The notes beneath the pieces were generated by a model. The model made no database searches and had not been told where the DNA came from. It saw nothing but the letters and a program-made list of their open reading frames with translations. DNA of 64,000 bases, taken from the NCBI GenBank assembly GCA_963920525.1, contig OY986438.1, positions 77,739,560-77,803,559 of the forward strand. Direction: 5' to 3'. Below are positions 8,631 to 64,000 of the stretch, one piece after another (within the stretch, counting starts at the first letter, position 1; the number at the start of each line of letters is the position of its first letter). The position numbers and the translations under genes were made by a program. The DNA comes from Dichetophora obliterata (lineage: Eukaryota > Arthropoda > Insecta > Diptera > Sciomyzidae).

Positions 8631-8639
8631 ATTAGAACT

Positions 8640-29416: not shown

Positions 29417-30031
29417 TGTAAGGACCCCTTTCGACGGGGTCAAAACCGGCCCTCACAATCAGAGCCCACCAAACGATTCTACCGATGGCGGCCCTGCTAC
29501 GGCCACATAAACGACCGGCAGCCAGGCAATACCCCATCGCATAATAAGCAGCGCCCCTGTAAATACAAATCACAGGCGACCGCATCTACAACAACAACCA
29601 CACTACCCCAGTTTAAGTTATTTGCTTAACAACAGCAACGCTACACATTTATAGTCAACGACATCAACAACAACAACGCTGCTCCAGCATTAAAAGCAGT
29701 CAACGCTACAACAGCAACGCTATGTACCCATAGCCAAAAAAGACGAAACCCCCTCCCGATGACGACAAACAACAGCTGCCTCAGCCACACATGAACCACG
29801 GATCACGCCACTCACGGTAACCGTACCTATTTATATAATCATTAAATTTCATATTCCGACTGCAACTCAAAGTACAGCCATAATAAAACACATCTTTATT
29901 TTTGTTATTATAAACTTCATTATTCTAATAGTCTAATCTTTATTAAGCTATATATATGTAATACACACTATACATACTAATAAGTTAAACATTGAATTGA
30001 CCACTTAAAATCCAATACTTGAAACTAAACT
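29417..30031 (+). repeat. Element X LTR1, first part
   Basis: It matches 60919-61531 nearly base for base, from TGTAAGGACCCC to gaaactaaact. Contains caacaacaacg-type repeats in U3. Interrupted by the LINE at 30032. Confidence 0.9.
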
Positions 30032-31442: not shown

Positions 31443-31459
31443 ATGCTTCTATACCGACG

Positions 31460-32493: not shown

Positions 32494-32514
32494 TCTATAT
32501 ATATAAAAATGGAT

Positions 32515-32583
32515 GTATGTATGTGGGTATGTGGGTATGTGGGTATGTGGGTATGTGGGTATGTGGGTATGTGGGTATGTGGC
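32515..32583 (+). repeat. gtgggtat microsatellite in the Helitron head
   Basis: Uninterrupted 8-bp units gtgggtat (about seven) following gtatgtat units, just inside the Helitron 5' end. Confidence 0.9.
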
Positions 32584-32629
32584 TATATCACATATAGACT
32601 CCAAAACCGCTGAACCGATCTTTATGAAA

Positions 32630-34900: not shown

Positions 34901-36240
34901 CAGTGATGAAATTTTATGGTAGTGGACAAGGGGGAGGGGCACCTCCCATACTACCCAAATTTGTGATATCGAATAGCTTTGAAGTTATAGGAATTCAACT
35001 ATGGAATTCAGTTTTTGACCTCAATTTACACATGCAGTTTCAATGGTTTTATTTTATGGGCGTTAGACAGGGAGGCGTGACATCTCCCTTACAACCCAAA
35101 TTTGCGATATCGAATTGCTTTGAAGTTATAGGTTGACAGCTTAAGAATTCGGTATTCGACCTACATTTATGCATGCACTTTCATTCCTCTACATTTTGTG
35201 AGCGTAGGGAAAAGGGGAGTTGTACTTCCCAAACAACCCAACTTTGTGCTATCAAATAGCTTTGGAGTTATAGGTCGCACAACGCCGGAATTCAGTATTC
35301 GACCTCAATGTACACATGCAGTTTCATTGATTCAATTTTATGTTCATTGGTATGAGGGGCGTGGCACCTCCCATTTAACGTAAATTTGCGATATCGAATA
35401 TCAGCGTCAGAATTCAGTATTCGGCCCCAATTTATACATGCAGTTTCATTAATTACATTTTATGAGCGTTGATCAAGGGGGAGTGGCACCTCCCATACAA
35501 CGAAAATTTGTGATATCGACAAGGGGGAGTGAAACCTCCTATTTAACCCAAAATAGATATATCAAATAGCTTTGGGGATATAGGTCTCACAGCTTTGGAA
35601 TTCAGTATTGGACCTCAATGTACACATGCAGATTCATTGATTACATTTTATGAGCGTTTATCAAGGGGAAGTGGCACCTCCCATGCAACGAAAATTTGTG
35701 ATATCGAATAGCTTTGGAGTTCAAGGTCGCACAGCGTCGGAATTCAGTATTCGACCAAAATTTACGCTTGCAGATTTACTGATAAAATTTTTTAGTGTTT
35801 ATCGGGTGGGCGTGACACCTCCAATTGAACCTAAATTTGCGATATCGAATAGCTTTGGAGTTATAGGTAACTCAGCCACGGAATTCAGTATTCGACCTCA
35901 ATTTACACATGCAGTTTCATTGGTAAAATTTTATGGGCGTAAGGAAAAGGGTAGTGGTACCTCCCATACAACCCAAATTTGTGCTATCGAATAGTTTTGG
36001 AGTTATATGTCGCACAGTTTTGGAATTCGGTATTCAACCTCCATGTACACATGCAGTTTAATTGATTACATTCTATGAGCGGTGATCAAGAGGGCGTGGC
36101 ACTTCCTATACAACCAAAATTTGTTATATCGAATAGCTTTGTGGATATAGGTCGCACAGTCTCAGAATTCAATATATGACCTCAGTTTAGACATGCTGTT
36201 TAACTGATAACATTTTATGGGCGTTTGACAAGGGAGAGTG
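34900..36240 (+). repeat. Helitron internal repeat block 2, about 150-bp satellite
   Basis: About nine units, some partial, share ggggcgtggcacctcccatacaa, tttgcgatatcgaatagctttgg and ggaattcagtattcgacctc. The last unit runs into the 3' end. The chance ORFs in this block simply follow the period. Confidence 0.85.
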
Positions 36241-36266
36241 GCAGCAACGCGCCGGGTTTCAGCTAG

Positions 36267-37813
36267 TAAATTATACAAAAAGAGTAAATTGAACATGTCC
36301 TTTCGTGAAAACTATCTTGTGGCTCGTAAACAGTATGAAACTCTGAAGATCTCCCTTTATAGAAGTAATGTCCGGGCGTTGGAATCGGATATTAAATGCA
36401 ATCCTAGAGCTTTCTGGAAATTTTTTAATAAAAAGAGAAATACTAAGGGTCTTCCTAAAAATATGTATTTTAAAGATAAAATATCGAACAATATTGATGA
36501 TGCATGTAATATGTTTGCTGACTACTTCCAATCAAATTTTGTTTTAGATAATGTTCCTATACATCAAGATCGATCGCTATATAATGGAGAGCGAATCACT
36601 GATTTGGGCAGTTTAGTTCTTTCGGTAGAAGATGTTTTTAACGAGTTGTTGTCACTCGATATTAATAAGGGTGCTGGCCCCGATAATATCCCACCAGTCG
36701 TCCTTAAAAAATGTGCTGCTGCACTTGCTCAGCCTCTTTCAATAATTTTTAATTTGTCCCTTGAGAAAGGTATATTTTTGGATATTTGGAAGGTTTCAAT
36801 TATAGTTCCTATTCATAAATCTGGATCAAGACAAGACATTGGAAACTATAGACCAATATCTAAGTTACCATCAATTCCCAAATTGTTTGAAGCCTTGGTG
36901 AAAAAGCAGATCTATCAAGGCATTAAAAATTCGATATCTGAAAGCCAGCATGGTTTTGTCTCTGGAAAATCAACCTCTACAAACCTGGTTCTATTCACTC
37001 ACTTAATAAAAAATGAATTGGAGAATGGTAAACAAATAGACGGTATTTTCACAGATTTCGCTAAAGCATTTGATAGAGTTCAGCACTCTATTCTAATTAA
37101 TAAGCTCAGTCTAATGGGTTTTCATTCTTCACTCTTGTCTTGGCTTAGTGAGTACCTTTTAGGTCGTAGCCAAAATGTATGCATGGGAAAGACGATCTCA
37201 AAAGCAATAATTAATCATTCAGGTGTGCCACAGGGTAGCCACCTTGGGTTATTTATTCTTTTCATCAATGATCTTCCTAATTTTATACAGTACTCAGATT
37301 GCCTTATGTATGCTGATGATGTTAAGATTTTTAAGTCTGTAAGCTCTCTTAGTGATCAATGGAGTTTACAAAGTGATTTAAATAGTCTGCACTCATGGTG
37401 TATGCTAAATAAACTGAATTTAAATTTGTCAAAATGCAACATAAGAGTTTGCTGACCCGTATACCTTAAAGACTCTTTTCATTTCCATTATAAGATCAAT
37501 ACTTGAGTATGGGTGTGTAATATGGGACCCATTTTATGAGTCGCATAGTACAAGATTGGAAAAAGTCCAAAAACGTTTTACTCGTTTTGTTGTGAAAAAA
37601 CTAAATTGGAATTTTATGCCAGAGTATAGCTCCCGATGTGCACTTATTGGGCTTAAATCGTTGAGTTCTAGAAGAAAATATTTTCTTATAACTTTTGTTC
37701 GAGATCTTTTAATGAATAATATTAACTGTGCGCCAATCCTCGCCCGTCTAAATATTTATGCTCCGGAAAGACACTTTAGGCAAAGAGATTTTTTTTTACA
37801 TTCCGCACCATAG
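36267..37813 (+). pseudogene. LINE ORF2, reverse transcriptase domain
   Basis: The frame continues from the endonuclease half. RT motifs in order: KGAGPDNIPPVVLKKC, WKVSIIVPIHKSG, NYRPISKLPSIPKLFE, SQHGFVSGKSTSTNL, GIFTDFAKAFDRVQH, GVPQGSHLGLFILF and catalytic LMYADDVKIF (about 37306). It stops at 37453 after LSKCN, and a stretch of about 50 codons seems deleted before the C-terminal SILEYGCVIWDP and RLEKVQKRF motifs at 37500-37813. The motif set fits the CR1/Jockey group. Confidence 0.85.
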
Positions 37814-38069
37814 AACTAACTATGGCCGGAGTGATCCGATTTTTAACATGTGCACTGTCTATAACAGTGTAAGTGCTCGTATAGATTTCACTAAAAATAG
37901 AGAGGCATTTAAGCAAACTGTATTGAGTATTGTATAAATCCTTAATTTTATATTCTTTAAATAATTACATTATAATTATGGTTTTAGTGTAATTTAAGAT
38001 GCAATAAAGAGACTGTTAAACATTTTTGTCGATAGTTTATAAATAAATAAATAATAATAATAATAAACT

Positions 38070-39219
38070 AAAGTACTCACCCTGTATTATATTTAAGCTA
38101 GAAACATAAAGCACACACACATTGTTACACATATAAGAAATTTATATTATCAAAAATAACACATACATACAAAAGTACTGAGCGAGCTTCCCCTCAAAAT
38201 ATAACACACACATTTATACACCACATAAGAAATAGTGTGTATCAAATTTTGTAAATTATATTTGTTTCTCGCTCAGACAAGCATAGAATGTATGACTATC
38301 GTAAATAGAATAAGTTTATATGCGTCACATGACGCCGGTGCCAGCCACCACTTAGGAGATTTTATTTTTTGGAAATAAAGAGTCGAGTGCGAGACACTGA
38401 ATGGATAAGACGTACTGAATTTTTATTACGATTTATTCGAGTTGGAAATATTTAGAAGCTGAGAGCAATTTGGAAGGTAGCTGGTCGGACGGACGCTGAC
38501 ACCAAAGACGGTAAGGTATCTTGAAAACAACCCCACACCACTTCCTAGATTCCTTTCACACTAGGGCAAAACGTCGAGAGTTAAGACCTTTCATCGAAAG
38601 CTTTTCATCTCCGTTTTCCCACTTCCAACTCTGCATGAGTACCGCCGAAAGGCCATTTCACAAAATCTGTTTCACGCTTGAGGCCAGACGGCTCTTTAGG
38701 AGCACCTCAGGACCTCGCGTCGAAACGCCTTGCCAGCTATACGCCAGCAAATATCCTATTACAAGGCGAGCGTCGTGGCCAGAGACGTTAAAGTTCTCCG
38801 TGCCCTGCTTTGTGCTTTCCCACAGCTCTGCATGAGTAAACCAAAGCATAACCCCTTTAACAAAATTGTTTCACGCTTGAGGCTGGACGATTCACCGAGT
38901 CACCCAAGCGTCGCGTCGAAACAAATCGCAAGCTACACGCCAGCGTCCCTATCCCATTCCCGAAGAAATCCCTAGCGACGCAAACCGCACGGACAGACAG
39001 GCCGACAGGACGAACCGGCCATCCACCTGCAAAGCATCACTACCCGTAAGAGGATTTCTAGTCGGACATCGCCGCGATTCTAGTGCTCCCTTAAAAAAGG
39101 AGTGCAAGCGGTCACAACCCAAAACCTCCACAACAATTCTTGTGCCAGAACCCCGGACAGCCGCTGAGTTATACCCTGGCTGGAAAACCCAATCTGTAGC
39201 GCCCCGGAGGTTCGTTACA
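38070..39219 (+). repeat. Element X LTR1, second part with promoter and poly(A) signals
   Basis: It matches 61532-62683. Contains tttatatg (about 38313) and an aataaa (about 38377), then R-U5 sequence of about 840 bp, ending cggaggttcgttaca. Confidence 0.85.
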
Positions 39220-39221: not shown

Positions 39222-39240
39222 TGGCGCCCGAGCAGGGACT
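39222..39240 (+). other. Element X primer-binding site, copy 1
   Basis: TGGCGCCCGAGCAGGGACT, two bases after the LTR end; tRNA-Lys type as in Osvaldo/Ulysses and in element A. Copy 2 at 62686 has TGGCACCC. Confidence 0.8.
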
Positions 39241-39484
39241 CTGTAAGCAACCATCAAGCAAGCAGAGTCCAAGAAGAAAAAACCCAGGACCACGAGCCAA
39301 GCTTTCACATCATACGGAAACCACAGGCGTGGCCAGAAGCCGAAGTACAGTTCCGAGGACTACAAAAACATTCACACACACACACGTCAACGTGCCCAGC
39401 ATCAAGTGCGACCATACGCTGACAACGGTCGCAAGGACCACCACACTAAGTCTTCGAACTGGTTTAAAGACAACACATACAATG

Positions 39485-39745
39485 ATAATAATCATCTTTA
39501 ATTTAACAAAATAAAAGATAGCAGGATGCTACAAAATTAATCATCTTTAACACAATACAAAAATAAAAGATAGCGGGATGCTACAAAACTAATCATCTTT
39601 AAACACAACATAAAAATAAAAGATAGCGGGATGCTACAAAATAATCATCTTTAATTCAACAAAAATAACGATAGTAATCATCTTTAACCCTAAAAATGAC
39701 AACGCATAATTTGTCGAACTCGTTTGACGAAAACGAGTACAATCA
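39485..39745 (+). repeat. About 60-bp leader repeats of element X
   Basis: Four to five units of aatcatctttaa...aaaataaaagatagcgggatgctacaaaa, also present at 62950-63205 in copy 2. They lie between PBS and the first ORF. Confidence 0.85.
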
Positions 39746-39906
39746 TCTCTAACAAAGCAAACAAAAACAACAGCAGTTTCAAGGCCCATTATTGTGCACC
39801 AACTTCATCGTCCAAGCAAGCATAATCGTCGTGAACCCAGTAGGCCAATCCTACGATCATCACACAAACCCGGCGAACTTGTTTGACGAAAACAAAACCA
39901 CCACCA

Positions 39907-41256
39907 ATGTCATATTGCAACTGTTGCCCTCCGGTGACACAGCCACCGGAACCTACTCCGAAAGCAGCCACAGCTGTCGTTGCAAGAGAGACCCCAAAAC
40001 GAGTCGCAGGAAGCCCCATAACTCCACTTCAGTTTCGAGAACAAATGTTCGAAGAGTTACGGCAGCACATCCGACTAAAACACCAGCAGGAAGCTAGACA
40101 AGCAGCCCACAGCGAGCCTCGAAAAGAGCCGGCGCCATCAAAACAGCCACCCCCTCCTAAATCGACCGCTCGAAGAGCTAAAAAGCCTGCTACACGGAAG
40201 TTACAGCGTGAGCCAGAGCCACCAAAGCGGCCGTTGCTTTCGAAAACGATCGCTATTAAGATGGAAGAACCGGTAGCACCGAAGCTACAACCAATGCCAG
40301 CGCCACAAACGCAGGAAGTGCCAGCCAAACCTTTCGAACTGGACATCCCGCAAGAGTGCGAACAACCCCTAGAAGTGAGACAAGTTACAGCTGAACCTGA
40401 ACCATCACAACCCATACCCTGGCAGGAAGACGTCCAGGTTCCAGAAAAACTTGAGTTACAGCCAGAAGATCCGCTTCCAGAAGAAAATAAGGTAACCATC
40501 GATTCCCTCATCGGCACCAGCTCTCAACCTGCGAGCACCCTCACGCCAGAGCCATTGGCAAACCCCGAAGATACGTCAGTCGACGTGAAAGTTTTGCGCC
40601 ACACCGCAGAGCCAGAAAAATCGATACAAGGTGACGACCCCGACGACCTACAGCTCATAAAAAGTAAGTTGGCAGAATCACTAGAGGCCACGCCAGCCCA
40701 ACACGCACGACCGCCAGAAATTCAAGCGTGTTCAATCAGAAAGCGAGACGATTCACTAAAAGCAATTACACCGCATAACCTTGAAGGGCCACTAGCGCCA
40801 GATAAGCAGTTAACTCCCGTCAAACAGCAGAACCAAGAAGGGTCACTAGCACCAGACAAACCACTAGTGCCATCCAAACAACGATACCATGAAGGGCCGC
40901 CAGTGCCATGCAGACAACAAAAACATGAAGGACCACCGGCTCCAGATAAGCAGACAACACACACGCAGTCAACCGGGTCAATGTTACAGCCCCATCCCAA
41001 GAGACCGCCAGCTTCACGCGATAAGAAGACAACAGCAGCACAGGAACTGCTACCAATATTCGTACCCACCGAAGATGACTTCGCGTCAAGCAAAGTAGCA
41101 AACAACGAAGGGCCCATGGCCACAGCTTACGTGCATCATACAATTTGGGACCCAGGCATTGAGCAGAACAGTACACATCAGCGACTTGAAGAAGTTCTTT
41201 GCCATCGACAACTCACGACAGCCCGCATCATAAAACGAAGCATACCGCGGCCCTAA
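39907..41256 (+). CDS. Element X ORF1: proline-rich protein
   Basis: The frame runs from 39883, but ATG 39907 (MSYCNCCPPVTQPPEP) is the better start because copy 2 has a stop just upstream of the matching ATG (63369). The protein is about 449 residues, highly Pro/Lys/Glu/Gln-rich and probably disordered. It has one helical segment (LQFREQMFEELRQHIRLKHQQEARQ), basic Arg/Lys-Pro stretches, and an array of EGPxAPDKQ-x-TP-x-KQQ units near the C-terminus. I see no capsid, zinc knuckle or protease motif. It occupies the place of gag, but homology to Gag is not visible. Function unknown. Confidence 0.65.
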   Translation: MSYCNCCPPVTQPPEPTPKAATAVVARETPKRVAGSPITPLQFREQMFEELRQHIRLKHQQEARQAAHSEPRKEPAPSKQPPPPKSTARRAKKPATRKLQREPEPPKRPLLSKTIAIKMEEPVAPKLQPMPAPQTQEVPAKPFELDIPQECEQPLEVRQVTAEPEPSQPIPWQEDVQVPEKLELQPEDPLPEENKVTIDSLIGTSSQPASTLTPEPLANPEDTSVDVKVLRHTAEPEKSIQGDDPDDLQLIKSKLAESLEATPAQHARPPEIQACSIRKRDDSLKAITPHNLEGPLAPDKQLTPVKQQNQEGSLAPDKPLVPSKQRYHEGPPVPCRQQKHEGPPAPDKQTTHTQSTGSMLQPHPKRPPASRDKKTTAAQELLPIFVPTEDDFASSKVANNEGPMATAYVHHTIWDPGIEQNSTHQRLEEVLCHRQLTTARIIKRSIPRP

Positions 41257-41456
41257 TCCGCGTCAACAACTGGAAGCTACCGCGGCCCTAATCCGCGTCA
41301 ACAACTGGAAGCCACCGCGGCGCTAATCCGCGTCAACAACTGGAAGCTACCGCGGGCCTAATCCGCGTCAACAACTGGAAGCCACCGCGGCCCTAATCTG
41401 CGTCAACAACTGGAAGCTACCGCGGCCCTAATCCGCGTCAACAACTGGAAGCTACG
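41247..41456 (+). repeat. 36-bp minisatellite, six units
   Basis: Units ccgcggccctaatccgcgtc + aacaactggaagctac, nearly identical. ORF1 ends inside the first unit (TAA in ccctaatcc). The 36-bp length equals 12 codons. Confidence 0.95.
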
Positions 41457-42606
41457 CAACCCGACTATGTCATCATTCGCAGCCGTATCTGCCCCACCAA
41501 CTACGTTTCAGCACCGACTCAACATCATATGTGCAACCGCAGCACCGTCTGCGACACCAAAAGGGACCCGCAGCACCATCTGCAACACCAACTAGGACCT
41601 GCAGCACGTACCTGCACTAACAACTACCACCAACAACATGTCATACCTGACACGAAAAGTTGCAACCAGTGCAACAGCAAAATGACACAACCTCAAGTCA
41701 TGTGACAAGTCACAAACCATCACGCTACACATCAGCACCTACCAGAGAAGGTCACTGCCAAGTAAAGTCATCGCATCGGTCAACCAACAAACCGGGCTAG
41801 CAGTCCAAAGAATCACCTTGCGACCAGCTATCGACATGACCCCGCTGAAGCATGTCATCAACATGACAACTAGCGTTTGCATTATACACATGCAACGAGC
41901 GTCAAAACCCTCAGACCGCTCGTATTTTAAATTACATTCACCAAGCAACGCCTACCAACGGAAAGCCACCACGTCGAAGATATAGCCATCAGTCATCATC
42001 TACACTGCAAACGCCCAAACAAGTGTCGCACGCAGCATTATTACTGAGCTACACATCAGACGTACAACAAAGTCATACTTTCCTGGCAACATTTCCGTCG
42101 TAATACAACCATCACGCACCAGATGCACATCAAATCGTCAAAAATTCGTCAAAAAAACAGAAAATCGTCAAAATGCATTCATCAGTCATCGTCTACAGGG
42201 CCAACGCTCAAGCAAGCGTCACACACGACATAATTACGGAGCTACATGCCAGATGCACAACCAAATCACACTTTCTGTCAATCTCACCACAAGAATTCAA
42301 CCATCATGCACCGGCTGCACATCAAATGGTAAATTCACATGAAACTGCGTCATACAGTAAAGTATTTATAACTGGCAACACCGCAACAAAACGAAAGAAA
42401 GTTTGAACATAACTTCAAAACAAGCCATTGCAATTTGGACCGTTTCATAAGCAACAACGCAATTGAGTCTCCGAGCGCGATAAAACTTCGCAGTAAATTT
42501 AAAGTAAATATTTTCAAGTCGTATTTTTGCCAACCCACAGGGATTACGCCAAACTGTTTTTTTCAAAACAACCAACGCAAAGCGAGATCACCTCCAGCAC
42601 AGCATT
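41457..42606. other. Element X inter-ORF region with a tandem duplication
   Basis: No convincing ORF. A stretch of about 160 bp at about 41985-42140 (catcagtcatc...ccagatgcacatcaaat) is repeated in diverged form at about 42175-42335. The region is more GC-rich than the window average. Confidence 0.55.
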
Positions 42607-42825
42607 ATGGACCAACTACAGCTGAATAAGCAGATATTCATCGCTAAATTAAGGGAGCAAGTAGAAAAGGAGAAGCACGCTGCACAGGTCGCAGCGAAAG
42701 CACCCAAGTACGCAAACGCCATCGCAGACATCATCGCCGCCCCAGGCAAGCAGCTCCGTCGAGTGATCCGACCCACGTCCATTGTGGAGCGATCCGAGTG
42801 GTCCAAAACCCCTCGGCCGCCCTAG
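42607..42825 (+). CDS. Element X ORF2a: short helical ORF before the protease
   Basis: 72 residues with a charged N-terminal helix (QIFIAKLREQVEKEKHAAQ), ending at 42825 and overlapping the protease frame by 28 bp. It may be the true N-terminus of the protease joined by a frameshift, or a separate small protein. No family recognised. Confidence 0.4.
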   Translation: MDQLQLNKQIFIAKLREQVEKEKHAAQVAAKAPKYANAIADIIAAPGKQLRRVIRPTSIVERSEWSKTPRPP

Positions 42826-44168
42826 ACAGATCGATCAACGTTGACCAAGCATTCCGGCAAGATGCCACCACTACACCGAACTGGTCAAACTGTTCACCGT
42901 CAGCGCCATACATAGCCGACGACCTATTCGTGCACAGGTTTTACAACCAGACGGTAGTGACACCACCCGCCATCGAATGCACAGCGCAACTCGAGCAGGA
43001 GATGCAGCAGATACTGCCCCAAGCAACCGCAGAACTCGACGCCGAACTAAATCGCTCAACTGCACCCTTCGCAGCTAGCAAAGACTCGACGCAGTCTCAA
43101 CAGCCTGCACAGACGCCGACAACAGCGCCAGCAGCGGCAGCCACGACAGCCATAGAGCTGTCCAGCGACGACGACGACAACGAAAGCCCAGAGCATCTGT
43201 TCACCTACCCACCAGGTCCAGGAGGAATCACGATCGAAATGAACGATTATGCCTGTCTCGCTACAGACGTCTACGTGAACGACAAGATCATAGATTTCTA
43301 CCTGAAGTGGATTCAACGGGTGTTACTGCATGACGATCAACAAGCTGAATATCATTTCTTCAGCCCGCATTTTTACGAGCACCTCACGCGCCCCAGAGGA
43401 CGAGCAAGTGATACAACTTTGTCACTTGCTCAGCTACGCTACAAGGAGGTCCAGCCTTGGACCCGCCGCCACGATATTCTAAGCAAGCGGTACATCATCG
43501 TACCAATTAATCAAAATTTGCATTGGTTTGTAGTGATCATTTGCACAATAGCCACCGCAACACCGTCTTCGCATGCCATCACGCAACCCGCACACCAGCA
43601 GCCAGCAATGCTGCTATTTGATTCGCTTGCGTACACGGATCGCTCCCAGGTATTTCAGCCACTACGTAAATACCTCACACAGGAGTTGCACGCCAAATAC
43701 CCAGAGTGAAATCACACCACATTCACCGCCGAGAACCTGCCAGGATACCGCATGGTGGTACCACAGCAGCGAAATATGGCGGATTGCGGGCTCTTCACCC
43801 TACAATATGTGGAAAAGTTTGTAGAAGACGCCAACCACATCCCGCTTACCAACATCGAACGCGCCACCTGGTTCGCCACGGAACTCGCCACCCAAAAGCG
43901 CAGGCAAATAAGCGAGCTTATCCAGGAATTGGCAGGTCAACGTTTGCCTCCAATACCCCTGCCAGCATTACCCACAAGCAACAGCGAAGCAGTAACGCAA
44001 CCAGACACGGTTGCCAAATCACGCTTGATTTCATCTTTGCTGGACATCACCGACATACTCGAGCTAATACAAAAGGCCACAGCTCCACCACACTCAACTA
44101 CAACAGCACGAACGGGAAGTGCATGCCAAGCACCCACCCACGTCGATACAACCACCCTACATGTTTGA
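42798..44168 (+). pseudogene. Element X Ulp1/SENP6-7-like SUMO protease, one in-frame TGA
   Basis: This is a C48 cysteine-peptidase domain in one frame. VNDKIIDFYLKWI (about residues 159-171) is the substrate-cleft motif. YHFFSPHFYEHL and KRYIIVPI follow, then His242 in NLHWFVVII, Asp275 in LLFDSLAY, Gln324 and Cys330 in VPQQRNMADCGLFTLQY. The QxxxxxC spacing is that of SENPs, and the IIDFYLKW...FFSPHFY pattern and the insert between His and Asp are closest to SENP6/SENP7 (Drosophila velo type). SENP6/7 remove SUMO chains in the nucleus. A Ser/Asp-rich IELSSDDDDNE stretch precedes the domain. TGA at 43707-43709, between Asp and Cys, is the only break. Without read-through this copy is inactive. 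Confidence 0.85.
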
Positions 44169-44649
44169 CAGCGGGCCAGCGATCTCATCATTTCTGCCCA
44201 CACCGGATATCCAACGCCCACGCAGCTCAGTAATCACCGAAGGAGGTCAACCACAGCCAACATTTTACACTGGCTGGGATCTAGAACCGGACCTGTACAC
44301 TACAGAGCCACACAGCGATTTCGATGACCTGTATACTACAGAGCCATACAGTGATTTCAACGACCTGTATACTACGGAACCACATAGCGATTTCGACAGC
44401 CACATTTACGCATCAGAGCCACATAGCAGCAACGATCAGCGACTTGCAGGCAGTTGTCAAGACACCACGAGCGCAGAACCATCGTCGCACCCACACTGGC
44501 AACCTACACCATCCGGTTTCAATATGAACGCACATGAAGACCCCAAATACAGCGGCAGTCAATATCAAACCCACAACGAGATGCTCCTGGAGAACTGCAT
44601 AGGCTGGCTCATCCAACCAGACGAAGCCACTCCCACGACCATAGATTAA
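44119..44649 (+). CDS. Element X ORF3 or protease C-terminal extension with 12-residue repeats
   Basis: 176 residues in a different frame from the protease, overlapping its last 50 bp. It contains three copies of a 12-residue unit DLYTTEPHSDFD and a diverged fourth, encoded by 36-bp DNA repeats, followed by a Ser/His/Pro-rich tail ending GWLIQPDEATPTTID. Either a separate protein or the C-terminus of the protease reached by frameshift. It ends seven bases before the target site of element Y. Function unknown. Confidence 0.5.
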   Translation: MHAKHPPTSIQPPYMFDSGPAISSFLPTPDIQRPRSSVITEGGQPQPTFYTGWDLEPDLYTTEPHSDFDDLYTTEPYSDFNDLYTTEPHSDFDSHIYASEPHSSNDQRLAGSCQDTTSAEPSSHPHWQPTPSGFNMNAHEDPKYSGSQYQTHNEMLLENCIGWLIQPDEATPTTID

Positions 44650-44652
44650 ACG

Positions 44653-44656
44653 CAGG
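44653..44656 (+). other. CAGG target-site duplication of element Y
   Basis: cagg before 44657 and again at 60689-60692 flanks the two LTRs of element Y; four bases is usual for Ty3/gypsy integration. It proves the 16-kb element is one insertion in element X. Confidence 0.9.
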
Positions 44657-45794
44657 TGTTGCGTCCTCCCGTGAGGATGCACATAGGTCCTATTCGTGGC
44701 CCTACTTGTCAGACTGGGAACTCGTCCCAAGTCCTGGTTATTCTTTCTCACCTTATTATGCTAGGCATGATGAGTTATGCCGGTCTGTAGGCAGCCGTGA
44801 GGGTGCCAGAATGTTACCTGTATTATACTTACTCATGCTGATCTGGGTTGAAAAGTCCTCTGGTCCTTCTTTAGGTCCCTTGTTCTGTTTAGAGAGAATA
44901 ACGTTTTTTGTACTTTTCTTTACCGGTCACTTTAGTGACTGTATACTTTTATTTTCACAGTTTTATTTGTTTACCATTAACAGTCAACTATCTACACAGT
45001 TATAAAATCGACTATCTACTCTCTTAAAACTACTTATATTTAACACCTCGGTTTTTACGATAATTGGGTGTACTCAGCATTTGTGCAAGATGCGGAAGGC
45101 AATCTTGCACAATAATTAGTCTTAGTTTTTATTGATCTAGTTTACAATTATTTCCTTGTACGTAATTTCTTAACAATTAGGAAATGTTAAGCTTGCATTT
45201 GGTCTTGCATTCTTGGCCTAGGTTATATCTGGCTCAAGAATTTACTCTAGTTCCAATTAATTATTCTTTAAAATATACAGACATTCTTAAAGTAAACATT
45301 ATTATTCAGTCTTACATTCCTACATACTTATTTAATATTGCCAACTTAGGCCGAACAAACATACAAACATGTATTACATGTGTAATTGGGTCATGTTCCA
45401 ATGTTCAGTTCGTATTTAACTTATACTTGTTTTGCGTTATTCGCTTAGCCAAACTTTGTGTATGTTAAATACAACAATAAAATATTAAAATTAATTTACC
45501 TCTGGTTTTTGCCTAGCTAGCATTTTACGCTGGCCGCACAGAAGTAAATTGTTGGCTTTATTTTATTGTCTTTCATATAGCGCTTGCTATGAAAGCTGAT
45601 CGCCCAACTGGCGTCAGTGGTTACTTTAATAGCTTCTGTTTTGAAGGTGCCGACCTTGGCATTGAATTAACTTAAAGCGCTACAATGCAATGAAAGCTGA
45701 TCGCCCGATTTGCGGTAGATCAGTTCTCATTGCAGGCACTTGAACATTTAAAAACAGATAACGTTTTGGGGAAGCCGCGTTGTGAGTCACAACA
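44657..45794 (-). repeat. Element Y 3' LTR
   Basis: 1138 bp, on the minus strand TGTTGTGACTCACAACG... CGCAACA. The U3 tip is a palindrome GTTGTGA-C-TCACAAC holding a TGAGTCA-type site. A perfect 9-bp stem (gtgcaagat/atcttgcac) lies at 45084-45111. A short repeat atgaaagctgatcgccc occurs twice about 100 bp apart in U3. Confidence 0.95.
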
Positions 45795-45808
45795 TTCCTC
45801 CCCCCTTG
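45795..45808 (-). other. Element Y polypurine tract
   Basis: The minus strand reads gcaagggggaggaa directly before the LTR start TGTTGTG. Confidence 0.85.
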
Positions 45809-48519
45809 CACAAAGAAAATTTTTACCTTGAAGAGGTTAAAATTTTCGTCAATATACTTTAAAGTCTATTGTGTGTATGCTTGTTTTGCTTGTCTAATAA
45901 TTTTATGTGCTAAATGATCACAATTTTATATGCTAGTTCATTTTTCAACATCATTCTTCGTTTGATTTAATTTAATTTGGTTTACTTTAGGTAATTACAT
46001 ATCTTAAATTTTATTAATAGCATATTGATATTGTACTATGCTCTTAATTCTTAAGTTGTTAATTTTACAAAGTTCATTAGACTCATTACCTATTCTTGTT
46101 ATTTATATGTTAATTGTATAAAATTCTGCTTGTATTTATAACAATTTTTTACTACTTTTAATATATATTTAAAGTCACTTCTGTCTTGTATGAATGCATC
46201 CCTTGTGGTGTAATCTGATCCTCGTTGGCCTGCTACTGCCTGGTGTGTGGTGTCTATTACTTTTAGTCATCTTCTGGTTCCTTCTGTTGTTTTTATTTCT
46301 CCGCCCCGTTGTCCATCGGTGTGCCAAAAATATCACGGCGTGTTTCCTGTCTTTCATTGGTACAAGGATTTTTCTTTCGTACAATAATGCCAATTTGGTC
46401 TGTTCTGAAAGGTCCACGGTGTAGTCTTACATCATGTATTTTGACTTATAATTGAAGTTGCTGTTCCATCTATGTTGAATTAAATTTTGTTGTGTTTTAT
46501 ATCAGCATTTTAAGTTCTAGTTTAGTTTGTTTTTATTTTCTTCTGTCTCTCTCGCTGAAAGTTCTATTGTTGTGTTATATCGTTGTGTGGTGGGCTCTTG
46601 GATCACTTATCGGCCTTATTCCACTTGCTTATAAAGTCGGTTCCATTATTCCTTCGCACTATGCTCCACAGAAAAACTGCCAGCATATATTTGAAAAATG
46701 TTAAAAAAAAAACATAATTTCAAATTGTTGCGATACGTCTAACATCTTTACTTAATTAACATAATGTACTGCAAACCTGCACTTCTGTTCCATTTTACTA
46801 TGTCTTTTTGTCGTTGACTCAGAACTGTTGACATTTTTAAACTAATGCCGTTCCTTGTTTATTGTAGCTACTCCTCGCTGCCTATCATCTTTCCAGCTAA
46901 AACTCCATTATAATTACTTGTTGTACGTGATACTTGATACCTCGTATCAGAATGCAAAAGTAATATTGTATTTGGCCACTTTCGGCTTTAGTCATGGAAT
47001 TCCGTTGCATCTTTAGACCCAAAGTATTATCCTGGTATCTATGCTCGTTGCACTCCTGCTATTGTGATGCATACAAGACTATCGGTAACCCTCATATTCA
47101 TTTTTAGATGAAATTAATACTTATGTCTTATTTTAATCTTTTCATCTCAAAATAACTTAATTTATAGCTAATTTTAAATTTAAATCTTGCGCCAAAATGT
47201 TTTTGAACTGTTTTTAAATTTTGCGCTAATTATAACAACTATTACAATATATGCGTATTTTATTTGTTCTTTTCAGTGACCTTCATATATAATAATTTTT
47301 TTTTTTCATATATTCTTTGTTATCAAACTAACATATTATTTCAAAGGGTTTAATTTCACTTTACTCCTTTTAATATCTAAACATTTTAAATATCCTTTTA
47401 ACTTTTATTTTTATTTTTTCTTATATTTTCATGTATCTATAAGAAGCTATTTTGAATACTACTTTATTATTCATTTTAATCTTAAAGCTTTAATTCAAAA
47501 GTTTTCATTTACATATTAATCGAATCTTAATATTTCCGCATAATGAGAATTTTTATTTTAATTTTTATTTTGAATACCGAATTTTTCGATATTTTTATGC
47601 GAATTTGTATTCTTCTTTTCAATATTTCAACGCTTAAGTGCATTTTATTTCTCTTTAAATTCATTTTAAATTTAGGTATTTACAATCCAAAAAAAAAACT
47701 TTTTTTTTTATCTTTAAAAAAAAACTTATTTTTCTCAAACCGTAAAATCAAATTTTCTTTTATCATTTTTCTGTATTTTATTCTTCCATTTTATGTATTT
47801 TGTTTTACTGTGTTTTCAATGGACTTTGTCAATTGTCTCCTTTTTAATTATGTTTTACTACGTCTTCATTTGACGTTATAAAATTTCTTTATTAACCTTT
47901 TCAAATAGGTTTTAATTTTTTAATTTAAATTTTTAATTTTATTAACCTTTTCAAAGTAAAAGGTTGGCACTATCCTGGAATCTACAAGTAGAATGCGTGA
48001 CCACGATAAATACCTGCCAGTGATTTCCGTAACTACGTCATTCATTTTGAAAATTCCAAGACAATTACTTGTTACTCCAGATTATTTTTATACCATCTTT
48101 CACAGTTCCCTTATCTTCCTGCTATATTTTCCTGCTATCTTCTATTACTAAAAAAAAAAACAAATCCCGATTTATGCAAACCTTCTTCTTCATTACTTTA
48201 CATTAAACTTTAAATCCAAAAAAAAAATTTACAGAATTATTTTAAATAAAGTGGCACTATTTTGGGATCTGCAAGTAGACTGCGTTGTACTAGAATTTAA
48301 TCCTTGCGAGGGATTTCTGTATCAACGTCTTTCACTCTGAAGATTCCAACACATTTGCCTTTTACTTCAGATTTTCTGTACTTTTACTACCATATTCTGC
48401 CATTTCGCATTTCTTCCTATAAAATAATTCTGAAATTAAACTACATAAATTTAAACTTTAATTTTTAATTACATAACTATTATTGATTTATTTAATTATA
48501 GTCATTTCGTTTTAATTTT
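45809..48519 (-). other. Long AT-rich 3' region of element Y
   Basis: 2.7 kb between env and the PPT with no gene I can support. It has long A and T runs. A diverged duplicate pair lies at about 47955-48120 and 48245-48410 (tggcactat.ctgg.atct.caagtaga). Near 46290-46440 the minus strand has a GC-richer, ATG-less stretch of about 50 codons (KIHDVRLHRGPFRTDQIG...) that may be an exon or a relic. Confidence 0.55.
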
Positions 48520-50472
48520 TTATGTATACTTGACCCCGCAGTACTCCTCTGTGTTAATCTTGCATGGTAATTTTGGAAGTTCCCGATTGTTGTTTTTGTG
48601 CGTCGACCGTGCCATTACTTGCGCGTGCTTCACTATATGTAGTGGCACTCTTGGTGTTGGTATTTCTGTTTCGCTCATGACTTCGGCTACCGCATTTCTT
48701 CGTATGAGATTATCTCTCACTTCTTTCCTAACATATACAACTAATCCTATCAATATCGCCAATACCGCCATAGTTGATACGCCGCCGGTGATTCCCATCT
48801 TTTCCATGAATATCTGCTTCGCATATGTTTCGTCGTTTATTCTCTGCTGGGTCACTTCGTTTTTTAATACTTCAAAACTTTTCTCTCCTTCCGATAATAA
48901 CGCCCTCATATTCTTGTGATTCGTAACTTTAATAGGCAGCACCGTTAGTGCCTTCTCGTTTTCATTTTTAGTCCCGATCTGGCTCCACTCTTTCTTCAAT
49001 AACTCCATGTACTCCCCGTGATCAACCTGGCTGAAACCAATCTCCATTTCACTTGTTTGTGTTTTCTCGTATGTTATTATCGCGTCCTTATTTTGTATTG
49101 AACAGTCTTGCTTAACTGTTAATATACCCAGCTTGTTTAATGTAATTACGCTTGTCCCATTTTTACACATGACATCAAATATCACCGGTTTTCTAAAACT
49201 GAACAACCATACATTTGATTTCTCCGTCTTTACTAGCATTCCTTCGGTAGCTGGCACCGCGACAGGGTAACATGCGTTCCTCTTGTCCGATCTGTGTTGA
49301 AGTAATCTAATCTCACACAATGGATTGCTACTAGTGAATATTCTACCTTGATTCTTGCACAGCAGGAATTCCGTTTTATCCGTATCTCCTAATTTAAAAC
49401 ACCTGCCTCTTTCTTCATTTGTCTTACCGATGAACTTAAACTTGTCCTCTGACTCCGCCACGTAGTCAAAATTCGGCTTACACAGTGAGTCCCATTCCTC
49501 GGTTGCTACCATTGGGATCGGATACGGCTTATAAATCGTAAATCTCTCTGCCTCCGGAATTGGTACTTTAATTACGATTAATACACTCCCTTCTGTGGGA
49601 AATACCTTGAGATTTGCTGTTTTGTGAATATCGAATGCGCTCAAAATAAAACTAACTCCGTTTCCCGCTACTCTCAATGTAGTCATTAGTGTCTGTATGT
49701 CAGTCGCTGTTACTAAAAGTGGATTCAAGTTTCCCTTATATAAATCGTCAATGATGGATAACTCTGACAATTGTTGCCCTTGTATTTCTATTAGCTTAGC
49801 TTCCATCCTAGCTTTAATTTCCAAAGTTTTGACAACGTATTCTAATCTGACTACCTGCTTAGTCCATTCATCTTGTATATCTTTTTGGCTCGATATTGTT
49901 CTGTTTAGCTCTATCTGTATCTCTTCTACTTCCGTTATCAGTGTGTCTATTGGTTTTGATAATTTTTTATAACTATTGGCCAACACAGTAATTTGGTGAT
50001 CCATCATCTTGTATGTCTCCGTTTGCCGTTTGTCCATGTTGCTCAGGTGCTCCATTACTTTCTCTGAATGCTTCCTATCCATCACCCCGAATGCCCAATT
50101 AAATGCCTCTCCGACGAAGTCCAATGATCTCTTGATACGTCCATGCCGAAATGTTTGCTTTATACTGTTCTCGTTCCTCAGTAGATTTTTAATTATCGCC
50201 TCTATTTCCCTAAATGTCATTGTACACTTGTCCAAAGTGGTCAGCTCCTCCTCCACACACACTGCTCTCGTCTTCTCTTGCATTTCTCCTATAGTTTTTA
50301 AAACTTCCCCCATCTGGATAGGTTCGAATCGTGTGAATATTGTCCACTCGTTCTTAAAAAACAACGCCGTGTCTATATTCTCGAAAAACATCGGTGTTTC
50401 TGTAAGTTCCCTAATCTCTGTTTGCTGCATCCATGTTTCCTGCGCTCCACTTACAATCATACAAAACCACAT
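48520..50472 (-). CDS. Element Y envelope protein, F type, intact frame
   Basis: This is a 650-codon open frame downstream of pol. It shows the layout of errantivirus Env and baculovirus F proteins: a basic cleavage-like site RIKR at residues 112-115, followed by the hydrophobic start of a fusion peptide (SLDFVGEAFNWAFG). A long helical region spans about 130-250, a Cys-bearing ectodomain about 340-480, and one membrane anchor (about 562-581, STMAVLAILIGLVVYV) precedes a 69-residue basic tail. A classic long signal peptide is not obvious; MWFCMIVSG is short, so the true N-terminus may be added by splicing, as known for errantivirus env mRNAs. It is in the virion or cell membrane in related elements. 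Confidence 0.82.
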   Translation of the reverse strand: MWFCMIVSGAQETWMQQTEIRELTETPMFFENIDTALFFKNEWTIFTRFEPIQMGEVLKTIGEMQEKTRAVCVEEELTTLDKCTMTFREIEAIIKNLLRNENSIKQTFRHGRIKRSLDFVGEAFNWAFGVMDRKHSEKVMEHLSNMDKRQTETYKMMDHQITVLANSYKKLSKPIDTLITEVEEIQIELNRTISSQKDIQDEWTKQVVRLEYVVKTLEIKARMEAKLIEIQGQQLSELSIIDDLYKGNLNPLLVTATDIQTLMTTLRVAGNGVSFILSAFDIHKTANLKVFPTEGSVLIVIKVPIPEAERFTIYKPYPIPMVATEEWDSLCKPNFDYVAESEDKFKFIGKTNEERGRCFKLGDTDKTEFLLCKNQGRIFTSSNPLCEIRLLQHRSDKRNACYPVAVPATEGMLVKTEKSNVWLFSFRKPVIFDVMCKNGTSVITLNKLGILTVKQDCSIQNKDAIITYEKTQTSEMEIGFSQVDHGEYMELLKKEWSQIGTKNENEKALTVLPIKVTNHKNMRALLSEGEKSFEVLKNEVTQQRINDETYAKQIFMEKMGITGGVSTMAVLAILIGLVVYVRKEVRDNLIRRNAVAEVMSETEIPTPRVPLHIVKHAQVMARSTHKNNNRELPKLPCKINTEEYCGVKYT

Positions 50473-50558
50473 AATTTTTATATAATTTCCTATAACGAAA
50501 CAAACAAAATCTTTTTAGTACAAAATATTCTATGAAACGCTTCATTATGTCCCAAATA

Positions 50559-50590
<32 letters not shown>

Positions 50591-51150
50591 ATTAATATTA
50601 GTACTCCTAATATGAATCTTATACTATTTTTCCCTTTCCCGTACTTTCTTTATTTTATGTTATTAGATTTTTCCTAAAATATTATTTTTTTTTTTCTCTC
50701 TCGACAGTGTATATAATAAAATGTTTTTATAATTTTCCTACATCTACATAATAATCAATTATATCTTTACTATTTCTTTACTCTATTACTCACTTAATTA
50801 CTCTATATTCCGTTCGTTAATATATATATATTTATAAAAAAAAATCATTATTTCTTCTTAACCTTTAATTTTCGTGTAATAATTTAAGCAGGTTGTTATG
50901 CAGTTTCTTATTCTTTTCTATTTAACACCTCCCTTCATAAAATACTTTTAACTTTCTCTTAATATTTTAATTCATTAGTTTTAAGCTTTCAACTTCAGCG
51001 ACCTAAATTTGCTCCTCAATACGCTGATGTTGTTACTATTATACTTATTCGATTGTGAAATTATGAATTTCCTTATTCTGCATTTTAATTTCAATAATTT
51101 TTTCTCTTATTGCATATTTTCTCTTACTTCCCGCTTTATTATTATTATTA
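50473..51150. other. AT-rich interval between env and the antisense gene
   Basis: Contains a (ta)n run and long T runs near 50555-50590 and no ORF of note. Env and the opposite-strand gene diverge from this interval, so any internal promoter would lie here. Confidence 0.5.
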
Positions 51151-51159
51151 TGCAATTGC

Positions 51160-51180
51160 TTATATATGCATAATACTGAA
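51160..51180 (+). promoter_or_regulatory. Possible TATA element for the antisense gene
   Basis: cttatatatgcataatactg lies about 155 bp upstream of the ATG at 51324. Composition around it is AT-rich, so a chance match is quite possible. Confidence 0.25.
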
Positions 51181-51323
51181 TATGTTACTTCGATTGCGCG
51201 AAATTTTGCTTAGTTTCACCATGCAATCAGCTTTAAATTCAAAAAGTTTTCTTGTTTACTACTACTTCCGACTAAATTTAGTTCTTCTGTATACTTTGGA
51301 ACGATCGTATCAATATATTCATC

Positions 51324-52083: not shown

Positions 52084-52093
52084 ATTAATTAAA

Positions 52094-52110
52094 TTAAATA
52101 AATAAATTAT
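52094..52110 (+). terminator. Polyadenylation signal of the antisense gene
   Basis: aaataaataaatt follows the TAG at 52081-52083 by about a dozen bases, a compact arrangement common in insects and viruses. Confidence 0.45.
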
Positions 52111-52190
52111 TTTATATCCATAAAGTTATAAATTCTATTTCATGCGCTCAGGCTAAAAATTGTAGGAGTTAAGCTATCTATTTTATATCT

Positions 52191-59547: not shown

Positions 59548-59550
59548 TTT

Positions 59551-60688: not shown

Positions 60689-60692
60689 CAGG

Positions 60693-60918
60693 CCGCAACG
60701 ATGCCACCGCTACCAAGGCACTTTCAAACAGAGAGTCACTACGAAGTCCACCCAGCCTGGCCTCCATAGCTACAGCAGCGGATTAGCAACGAGCAGGCTC
60801 GACATAAGCGTGGAACACAGCGCACAATCAGTAAACATATCGAAGGGATATACTACAGGGTCCGGATTTGCCGATCCGGAAAAGTGAGAACGCTTTAACC
60901 CCCGAACTACCAGGGGGG
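60693..60918 (+). other. Element X internal 3' end and PPT
   Basis: Continuation of element X after the Y insertion. No ORF of note. A small palindrome ccggatttgccgatccgg occurs near 60860, and the tract ccaggggg immediately before TGTAAG (60919) is the PPT. Confidence 0.7.
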
Positions 60919-62683
60919 TGTAAGAACCCCTTTTGACTGGGTCAAAACCGGCCCTCACAATCGGAGCCCACCAAACGATTCTACCGATGGCGGCCCTGCT
61001 ACGACCACATAAACGACCGGCAGCCAGGCAATACCCCATCGCATAATAAGCAGCACCCCTGTAAATACAAATCACAGGCGACCGCATCTACAACAACAAC
61101 CACACTACCCCAGTTTAAGTAACTTGCTTAACAACAGCAACGCTACACATTTATAGTCAACGACATCAACAACAACAACGCTGCTCCAGCATTAAAAGCA
61201 GTCAACGCTACAACAGCAACGCTATGTACCCATAGCCAAAAAAGACGAAACCCCCTCCCGATGACGACAAACAACAGCTGCCTCAGCCAAACATGAACCA
61301 CGGATCACGCCACTCACGGTAACCGTACCTATTTATATAATCATTAAATTTCATATTCCGACTGCTACTCAAAGTACAGTCATAATAAAACACATCTTTA
61401 TTTTTGTTATTATAAACTTCATTATTCTAATAGTCTAATCTTTATTAAGCTATATATATGTAATACACACTATACATACTAATAAGTTAAACATTGAATT
61501 GACCACTTAAAATCCAATACTTGAAACTAAACTAAAGTACTCGCCCTGTATTATATTTAAGCTAGAAACATAAAGCACACACACATTGTTACACATATAA
61601 GAAATTTGTATTACCAAAAATAACACATACATACAAAAGTACTGAGCGAGCTTCCCCTCAAAATATAACACACACATTTATACACCACATAAGAAATAGT
61701 GTGTATCAAATTGTGTAAATTATATTTGTTTCTCGCTCAGACAAGCATAGAATGTATGAATATCGTAAATAGAATAAGTTTATATGCGTCACATGACGCC
61801 GGTGCCAGCCACCACTTAGGAGATTTTATTTTTTGGAAATAAAGAGTCGAGTGCGAGACACTGAATGGATAAGACGTACTGAATTTTTATTACAATTTAT
61901 TCGAGTTGGAAATATTTGGAAGCTGAGAGCAATTTGGAAGGTAGCTGGTCGGACGGACGCTGACACCAAAGACGGTAAGGTATCCTGAAAACAACCCCAC
62001 ACCACTTCCTAGATTCCTTTCACACTAGGGCAAAACGTCGAGAGTTAAGACCTTTCATCGAAAGCTTTTCATCTCCGTTTTCCCACTTCCAACTCTGCAC
62101 GAGTACCGCCGAAAGGCCATTTCACAAAATCTGTTTCACGCTTGAGGCCAGATGGCTCTTTAGGAGCACCTCAGGACCTCGCGTCGAAACGCCTTGCCAG
62201 CTATACGCCAGCAAATATCCTATTACAAAGCGAGCGTCGTGGCCAGAGACGTTAAAGTTCTCCGTGCCCCGCTTTGTGCTTTCCCACAGCTCTGCACGAG
62301 TAAACCAAAGCATAACCCCTTTAACAAAATTGTTTCACGCTTGAGGCTGGACGATTCACTGAGTCACCCAAGCTTCGCGTCGGAACAAATCGCAAGCTAC
62401 ACGCCAGCGTCCCTATCCCATTCCCGAAGAAATCCCTAGCGACGCAAACCGCACGGACGGACAGGCCGACAGGACGAACCGGCCATCCACCTGCAAAGCA
62501 TCACTACCCGTAAGAGGATTTCTAGTCGGACATCGCCGCGATTCTAGTGCTCCCTTAAAAAAGGAGTGCAAGCGGTCACAACACAAAACCTCCACAACAC
62601 TTCTTGTGTCAGAACCCCGGACAGCCGCTGAGTTATACCCTGGCTGGAAAACCCAATCTGTAGCGCCCCGGAGGTTCGTTACA
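60919..62683 (+). repeat. Element X LTR2
   Basis: Uninterrupted 1765-bp LTR, TGTAAGAACCCC to GTTACA, preceded by a PPT and followed by a PBS-like sequence. It therefore serves as the 3' LTR of copy 1 and the 5' LTR of a second copy. It shows what LTR1 looked like before the LINE insertion. Confidence 0.9.
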
Positions 62684-64000
62684 AGTGGCACCCGAGCAGG
62701 GACTCTGTAAGCAACCATCAAGCAAGCAGAGTCCAAGAAGAAAAAACCCAGGACCACGAGCCAAGCTTTCACATCATACGGAAGCCACAGGCGTGGCCAG
62801 AAGCCGAAGTACAGTTCCAAGGACTACAACAACATTCACACACACACACGTCAACGTGCCCAGCATCAAGTGCGACCATACGCTGACAACGGTCGCAAGG
62901 ACCACCACACTAAGTCTTCGAACTGGTTTAAAGACAACACATACAATGATAATAATCATCTTTAATTTAACAAAATACAAGATAGCAGGATGCTACAAAA
63001 TTAATCATCTTTAACACAATATAAAAATAAAAGATAGCGGGATGCTACAAAACTAATCATCTTTAAACACAACATAAAAATAAAAGATAGCGGGATGCTA
63101 CAAAATAATCATCTTTAATTCAACAAAAATAACGATAGTAATCATCTTTAACCCTAAAAACGACAACGCATAATTTGTCGAACTCGTTTGACGAAAACGA
63201 GTACAATCATCTCTAACAAAGCAATTAAAAACAACAGCAGTTTCAAGGCCCATTATTGTGTGCCAACTTCATCGTCCAAGCAAGCATAATCGTCGTGAAC
63301 CCAGTAGGCCAATCCTACGATCATCACACAAACCCGGCGACGGTTAAGCGAAAACAAAACCACCACCAATGTCATATTGCAACTGTTGCCCTCCGGTGAC
63401 ACAGCCACCGGAACCTACTCCGAAAGCAGCCACAGCTGTCGTTGCAAGAGAGACCCCAAAACGAGTCGCAGGAAGCCCAATAACTCCACTTCAGTTTCGA
63501 GAACAAATGTTCGAAGAGTTACGGCAGCACATCCGACTAAAACACCAGCAGGAAGCTAGACAAGCAGCCCACAGCGAGCCTCGAAAAGAGCCGGCGCCAT
63601 CAAAACAGCCACCCCCTCCTAAATCGACCGCTCGAAGAGCTAAAAAGCCTGCTACACGGAAGTTACAGCGTGAGCCAGAGCCACCAAAGCGGCCGTTGCT
63701 TTCGAAAACGATCGCTATTAAGATGGAAGAACCGGTAGCACCGAAGCTACAACCAATGCCAGCGCCACAAACGCAGGAAGTGCCAGCCAAACCTTTCGAA
63801 CTGGACATCCCGCAAGAGTGCGAGCAACCCCTAGAAGTGAGACAAGTTACAGCCGAACCTGAACCATCACAACCACCCATACCCTGGCAGGAAGACGTCC
63901 AGGTTCCAGAAAAACTTGAGTTACAGCCAGAAGATCCGCTTCCAGAAGAAAATAAGGTAACCATCGATTCCCTCATCGGCACCAGCTCTCAACCTGCGAG
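62684..64000 (+). mobile_element. Element X copy 2, internal start (cut by window end)
   Basis: It repeats 39220-40540 almost exactly: PBS (TGGCACCC here), the 60-bp leader repeats (62950-63205) and ORF1. Differences are scattered substitutions, a replaced short stretch before the ORF1 start and one added codon. Confidence 0.9.
63369..64000 (+). CDS. Element X ORF1, second copy, partial
   Basis: Same proline-rich protein as 39907-41256, from ATG 63369 (MSYCNCCPP) to the window end (about 210 codons). An in-frame TAA lies ten codons upstream, which supports this ATG as the start. One extra Pro codon (SQPPIPW for SQPIPW) relative to copy 1. The retained frame between copies that otherwise differ suggests the protein is, or recently was, under selection. 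Confidence 0.75.
   Translation, partial: MSYCNCCPPVTQPPEPTPKAATAVVARETPKRVAGSPITPLQFREQMFEELRQHIRLKHQQEARQAAHSEPRKEPAPSKQPPPPKSTARRAKKPATRKLQREPEPPKRPLLSKTIAIKMEEPVAPKLQPMPAPQTQEVPAKPFELDIPQECEQPLEVRQVTAEPEPSQPPIPWQEDVQVPEKLELQPEDPLPEENKVTIDSLIGTSSQPA

Follow-up and report, generated by a model that had tools for sequence, protein, structure and literature searches.

A predicted SENP6/7-like SUMO protease gene in Ty3/gypsy elements of Dichetophora obliterata, with gag and pol on separate elements in one branch

The NeSL/Utopia non-LTR retrotransposons of nematodes encode an Ulp1-like protease (PMC4640811, in part), and the Ginger1 and Mutator DNA transposons carry an Ulp1 C48 domain (PMC2836005, in part). 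Here a stretch of 64,000 nucleotides from the fly Dichetophora obliterata (assembly GCA_963920525.1, contig OY986438.1, positions 77,739,560 to 77,803,559, forward strand; the window) was analyzed, in which a long terminal repeat (LTR) retrotransposon, element X, contains a C48 open reading frame (ORF). The X family has a separate SENP6/7-like ORF near the 3' end of an LTR element, whereas NeSL/Utopia are non-LTR elements with an N-terminal protease and Ginger1 and Mutator are DNA transposons, the Ginger1 domain lying at the transposase C-terminus. Searches of the open-licence literature by title and start of abstract found no report of a C48/Ulp1 gene in an LTR retrotransposon or of elements with split gag and pol, which is not proof that none exists.

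The Osvaldo/Ulysses/Isis lineage of Drosophila, mosquitoes and Calliphora resembles X in its LTRs of about 1-2 kb and its tRNA-Lys primer binding site (PBS) (PMC3286476, in part), and an Isis-like element resembles the X family in its 4-bp target site duplication (TSD) and in having gag and pol (PMC3630058, in part). The portions of three accounts of the lineage (PMC3286476, PMC3630058, PMC5408442) describe gag, pol and, for some members, env, and mention neither a C48 ORF nor gag and pol on separate elements. Osvaldo being compared by description, the LTR length of X (1,765 bp) and its PBS (TGGCGCCCGAGCAGGGAC) suggest the likeness.

Pfam analysis detected Peptidase_C48 (PF02902) in the window ORF 42798-44168 on both sides of an in-frame TGA stop (43707-43709, forward strand), with E values of 7.8e-18 before and 1.1e-5 after it. 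With codons numbered from 42798, the open frame up to the TGA (42648..43709, forward strand) contained His242 and Asp275, and the remainder of the domain past the TGA (43710..44168, forward strand) contained Gln324 and Cys330, where a preliminary description of the window had placed them. The best PDB match was SENP7 (E 7.7e-27), with Ulp2 at 9.3e-11 and SENP2 at 3.3e-7, in agreement with the SENP6/7-like assignment of that description. The frame was also shifted near 44119-44168; a segment in another frame (44068..44649, forward strand), cut by the nested element Y, resembled the tails of the C48 ORFs of loci L067 and L032 and is likely the continuation of the same protein.

Eight open ORFs of related elements matched PF02902 with E values of 2.2e-27 to 2.9e-31, and a profile of 10 element proteins (A1) matched SENP7 at 6.5e-78, Ulp2 at 2.8e-31 and SENP2 at 2e-27. 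Alignment of ten open proteins showed 37 invariant domain columns, including H337, D370, Q418, Q419 and C425 of L067. H, D, Q and C were all aligned in 52 of 59 loci, the exceptions being L046, L047, L048, L052, L063, L065 and L066; the 59 are every fetched C48 locus except L001 and represent 54 distinct places, five having been fetched twice, with L037 as the window copy. On this alignment and these matches, the element protein is a Peptidase C48 of the SENP6/7 (Ulp2) branch and a predicted SUMO protease. All ten proteins could also be aligned in a C-terminal module of about 40-50 residues, which is weakly conserved, YRVxIxRxG-like and has one invariant Arg; no Pfam domain was found in it in the eight ORFs scanned. 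Before the domain, the window copy had the stretch IELSSDDDD (43152..43178, forward strand), which we liken to a putative SUMO-interacting motif; it also occurred in L067 and L032, with a close form in L031 and L014, and it or a close form preceded the domain in the X, A, B and C representatives. An envelope identity for this third ORF was ruled out, since PF02902 was found in all eight ORFs scanned and no envelope domain.

In the same 1.31-Gb genome, a PF02902 search gave 440 candidates, the best 150 of which were all above the Pfam cut-off, 131 stop-free in the match and 19 with one or two stops. The sequence of X itself gave 496 candidates, of which the best 130 were scored; for gag and pol the best 106 of 3034 and the best 38 of 22233 were scored. 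As only best-scoring candidates were scored, intact copies were favoured. One locus, L001, matched SENP1 first; it is an Ulp1-like exon and probably belongs to a host gene. The other 29 fetched loci were 31-66% identical to the X domain and formed about eight subfamilies, many within-subfamily pairs being 95-100% identical at different genomic places. At least 132 matches were listed with the X query, 16 of them at 91-100% (two of these are pieces of a tandem copy of X). These many copies ruled out a one-off capture. Four X-like copies (L038, L039, L043 and L044) had stop-to-stop C48 frames of 717-826 codons that read through the place of the TGA, and the remaining X-like copies had a stop, a frameshift, a deletion or a shorter frame.

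The ratio of nonsynonymous to synonymous substitution (dN/dS) was obtained for 231 non-independent pairs from 22 chosen open domains, with pairs of dS <2.5 reported. It was 0.07-0.18 in 14 pairs with dS 0.1-0.5 and 0-0.38 in seven closer pairs, so purifying selection acts on the C48 gene among the open copies that were compared. The preliminary description had proposed a test for values below 1, and had named absence of a C48 match, presence in a single copy and neutral decay of the triad as contrary outcomes; none of these was observed. A chance ORF was ruled out by the E values and the selection. Transposable elements do capture host genes, and the window copy is broken, as would suit a host SENP6/7 gene that was acquired accidentally and has since drifted as neutral cargo; however, with the dN/dS values above and with catalytic residues kept across subfamilies 31-66% identical to X, this is very improbable.

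Seven 10-kb stretches (L031-L036 and L067) were read, and all contained gypsy-type elements with the C48 ORF 3' of gag and/or pol. In L034 and L036 the order was gag (PF03732), pol (aspartic protease, reverse transcriptase (RT), RNase H and integrase (IN)) and C48, a single stop separating the RNase H/H2C2 part of the L036 pol from its integrase core. L033 contained pol, C48 and, in the bases read, part of a gag; L031 and L067 contained pol and C48; L032 contained gag, a 739-codon ORF2 and C48, and of pol only its tail; L035 contained remnants only, the start of a gag being joined to a truncated integrase, plus C48. C48 was the last long forward frame before the 3' LTR in all five stretches with a recognized LTR (L031, L032, L034, L035 and L067); no LTR was recognized in the stretches of L033 and L036. 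The LTR parts of L034 were identical over 1,356 bp, which indicates a young insertion. The pols of the C48 elements shared 64-90% identity over RT-IN and were about 41% identical to that of Y. From this gene order, X's clade is one of Ty3/gypsy elements with the protease as last gene, and the protease is not the cargo of one derivative.

The preliminary description had called X a pol-less element, which held for the window copy and failed for the family: gag and a pol with aspartic protease, RT, RNase H and IN are absent from the window copy and present in its relatives. The nearest open copy (L038/L067, 97%) had the structure leader-pol-C48 with a full pol frame of 1,232 codons, further copies are built as leader-gag-(ORF2)-C48, gag-pol-C48 on a single element occurs in more distant relatives, and a pol-less family was ruled out by the pol of L067, L031, L033, L034 and L036. 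Between X and subfamily A (L067/L031), pol identity was 87-90% over RT-IN and about 48% in the N-terminal portion, which includes the aspartic protease, and C48 identity was 61%; this uneven identity along the element suggests module exchange. Six C48 matches about 11.85 kb apart at C7:12176614-12236379, including L036, likely represent a tandem array of a whole LTR element, and shorter tandem C48 spacings were seen at C4:88.82, C3:163.70, C1:145.15, C3:154.43 and C4:62.31 Mb.

Outside this genome the nearest proteins were SENP6/7-type proteins of Anopheles (P0002) and Chironomus (P0003), from a search in which 7991 candidates were scored and 12 passed. Identity to the subfamily F protein was 43-47%, in alignments that span 23-29% of its length. 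Their N-terminal region is longer and a long loop precedes the catalytic Asp, whereas the element proteins have no such loop and a different end module; we read P0002 and P0003 as host genes. Phylogenetic trees placed the element domains in two well-supported groups plus L017. In the approximately unbiased (AU) test, with long branches present and groups named after a tree had been seen, one clade for all elements was mildly rejected (p 0.03), one clade without L017 was not rejected (p 0.15), and one clade of the elements with the two dipteran proteins was rejected (p 0.01). As far as the data go, the origin would be explained if a SENP6/7 gene was captured once or a few times. Viral contigs scanned with the A1 profile gave 18 pattern stretches, with no relative among them.

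The 48 X-branch C48 loci (identity at least 57%) that were typed comprised 26 with gag only, seven with pol only, 15 with neither and none with both. They were drawn from 70 C48 rows at this identity, after removal of 22 fragments that were short or had many stops; one of the 22 is a second piece of the tandem copy next to the window. Typing covered 58 of 132 C48 rows, 38 of 108 gag rows and 38 of 64 pol rows. Two broken gags were each joined from two pieces, so that the 38 gag rows count as 36, and the untyped pol rows are second pieces or N-terminal parts. One locus with neither, C2:129414010, had a gag about 13 kb upstream, beyond the distance limit used, and the X gag-type loci at 115.40 and 115.43 Mb on C2 have the appearance of an inverted duplication. 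The gag-type/pol-type counts were 11/3 in X (at least 84%), 3/2 in the 70% group and 3/2 in A and its near kin; subfamily C had three gag-type loci and one pol-type locus, the pol of which has stops, and both types occur there only probably. In other subfamilies gag, pol and C48 stood together (L034, L036, C3:169705704, C1:58636119 and C3:109230850).

The LTR end and PBS lay about 0.9 kb before pol in L067 and about 1.0 kb before it in L031, with no gag match and no room for gag between them, and preceded gag in L032. Fifteen short probes 5' of C48 found gag in 10, pol in two and neither in three (L074, L078 and L079, leader sequence only); a genome search later placed gag in all three elements concerned, those of L043, L040 and L041. 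The distance from the gag end to the C48 reference point was 2.2-3.9 kb in the 26 gag-type loci (partial matches extrapolated) and 4.6-5.1 kb in three elements with both genes. As pol with its spacer needs about 5 kb, the absence of pol from gag-type loci is not owed to search depth alone. These arrangements indicate that in X's branch gag and pol belong to different elements, alike in their type of LTR end, PBS and C48 module, which replaces the earlier idea that X borrows pol from a relative.

The split may be apparent only, both types being non-autonomous derivatives of a gag-pol-C48 master that is rare, unassembled or unscored. The complete elements of the sister subfamilies, the restriction of the gag and pol searches to their best candidates, and the 15 of 48 loci with neither gene fit such a master. 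However, none of the 33 loci with gag or pol has both, the spacing of gag-type loci is too short for pol, gag-type L032 has its own ORF2 in the place of pol, and both types recur in three subfamilies (X, the 70% group and A) and probably in a fourth (C), so we regard this explanation as unlikely. Non-autonomous LTR elements such as LARDs, HeT-A and BARE-2 depend on the proteins of partner elements; the gag-type and pol-type elements differ from these in that the one has the gene which the other lacks, and in sharing LTRs and a third gene. As a separate observation, when 61 typed gag matches were compared with 64 typed C48 rows (of at least 132), 23 of the gags were not followed by a C48 in the next 12 kb; examples are C3:135162253-, C2:228208460- and C2:51633652+. 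Several of the 23 are open gags of 390 codons, possibly a gag-type without C48.

In their 3' modules, gag-type L039 and pol-type L044 were 98.9% identical over 2,310 nt, and L009 (gag-type) and L011 (pol-type) were 96.7% identical over 3.66 kb. An identical 14-bp deletion, which shifts the frame at the catalytic Asp, was present in gag-type L046 (C6) and L047 (C4, 85 Mb) and in pol-type L048 (C4, 179 Mb). The common deletion and the near-identical 3' modules show that sequence passes between the two types. Co-packaging followed by template switching would produce this pattern, and so, alternatively, would gene conversion.

In the Drosophila ovary SFiNX-guided silencing requires SUMO, as does Piwi-guided transposon silencing in flies (PMC8733420, in part). 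In the mechanism that we propose, the captured SENP6/7-like protease would strip SUMO chains from the host silencing machinery, and removal of SUMO would help the elements to resist SUMO-dependent silencing and to be transcribed and copied. We know of no transposon-borne antagonist of the SUMO step in Piwi-guided silencing. Copies with a dead C48 have spread, from which we infer that the protease may act in trans and serve such copies too; gag-type and pol-type RNAs would share one particle. That the clade's last gene is a SENP6/7-like SUMO protease acting against SUMO-dependent silencing, with deSUMOylase activity deduced from its sequence, is a reading to which we give an even chance.

Several points weigh against this reading. 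The substrate may include Ub-like targets besides SUMO, and the spread of the dead-C48 copies L046-L048 fits a dispensable gene as well as trans action. A pattern search found the SUMO-interacting-motif-like stretch neither in the remaining subfamilies nor in the X copies L039 and L043. The AU test speaks mildly against a single capture (p 0.03), and the C48 tree is weakly resolved. A particle or integration role would account equally well for the selection: the protease might serve the element's own particles, deSUMOylating Gag or integrase so as to permit assembly, entry into the nucleus or integration, and have no part in silencing. In six of the seven long stretches C48 stood beside a gag or pol frame (L035 with remnants only), and purifying selection says nothing about the substrate; however, pol already has an aspartic protease, and SENP7, the nearest relative of solved structure, edits SUMO chains. 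We judge the own-particle role possible, at well below an even chance. The wider proposal is a segmented LTR retrotransposon, in which two kinds of element share LTRs and leader, would co-package and recombine, and each carry a captured SENP6/7 protease that would disarm SUMO-dependent silencing for all, including gutted passengers like X; we put it forward tentatively, at slightly under an even chance.

In the window, the C48 ORF lies between two LTRs of X, as had been described. Part 1 of LTR1 (29417..30031, forward strand) starts with TGTAAGG and matches 60919-61533 at 98.2%, and part 2 (38064..39219, forward strand) ends with TTACA and matches 61528-62683; LTR2 (1,765 bp) occupies 60919..62683 (forward strand). 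The two LTRs were identical at 1734 of 1765 sites (98.2%). The PBS TGGCGCCCGAGCAGGGAC (39222..39239, forward strand), which we take to be of the tRNA-Lys type, was also found in L032, L034, L035, L076 and L077, and the polypurine tract (PPT) AGGGGGG lies at 60912..60918 (forward strand). A G-run immediately 5' of TGTAAG was present in 15 of 18 X-like loci and in none of the stretches examined for L037 (the window copy), L050 and L051. The TSD ATGT 5' of LTR1 (29413-29416) equals the right flank in L068. The LTRs, PBS, PPT and TSD of an LTR retrotransposon are thus all present in X and its family.

The internal sequence of X (39222-44656 and 60689-60918, about 5.7 kb) is interrupted by Y (44657-60688). 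It contains the proline-rich ORF1 of 470 codons (39844..41256, forward strand), which is related to ORF2 of gag-type L032 and in which no Pfam domain was found. Tandem repeats of 35 bp (41223..41467, forward strand) contain the end of pol in pol-type relatives, and the part 3' of Y (60689..60911, forward strand) corresponds to the region of the conserved C-terminal module, with a match to L067 from 60725 on. The absence of RT and integrase from the internal sequence was confirmed: neither domain was found in the 10 X-internal ORFs scanned (of 77 ORFs listed), and tblastn of five related pols and three gags against 39231-44656 matched only the last 25-53 residues of pol and no gag.

A second X internal region, belonging to a tandem copy, starts at 62684 (62684..64000, forward strand); its C48 lies right of the window at C4:77805846-77806513, with a TAA in the first piece. 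A third X LTR follows this region outside the window, and the whole array is flanked by ATGT/ATGT (4-bp TSD), which suggests that X probably inserted once into an older gypsy element and later became a tandem array. The C48 frame of the second copy (L064) ends after the same residues as the window copy, so the TGA is probably common to both and predates the tandem. With its TGA, frameshift and nested insertions, and no gag and no working pol, the window X is on its sequence a dead passenger.

The window also contained other elements. The Y element nested in X is a gypsy-type element of about 16 kb on the minus strand (44657-60688) with LTRs of 1,138 bp at 99.2% identity, TSD CAGG/CAGG, and gag-like, pol and Baculo_F-type env ORFs (env 1e-26). 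LTR1 of X is split by a Jockey-like non-LTR insertion (about 30032-38063) with endonuclease and RT domains; repeats of 93 to 271 bp lie between its endonuclease and RT frames. At 6344-10321 there is a broken element, in our reading Pao/BEL-like, with aspartyl protease, H2C2 integrase and Baculo_F-like frames.

Whether transposons counter piRNA-guided heterochromatin could be tested directly on a predicted SUMO protease that LTR elements carry in many copies and that selection maintains. If gag and pol are indeed stably divided between two elements, this would be a new way for retrotransposons to complete their life cycle, comparable to the segmented genomes of viruses.
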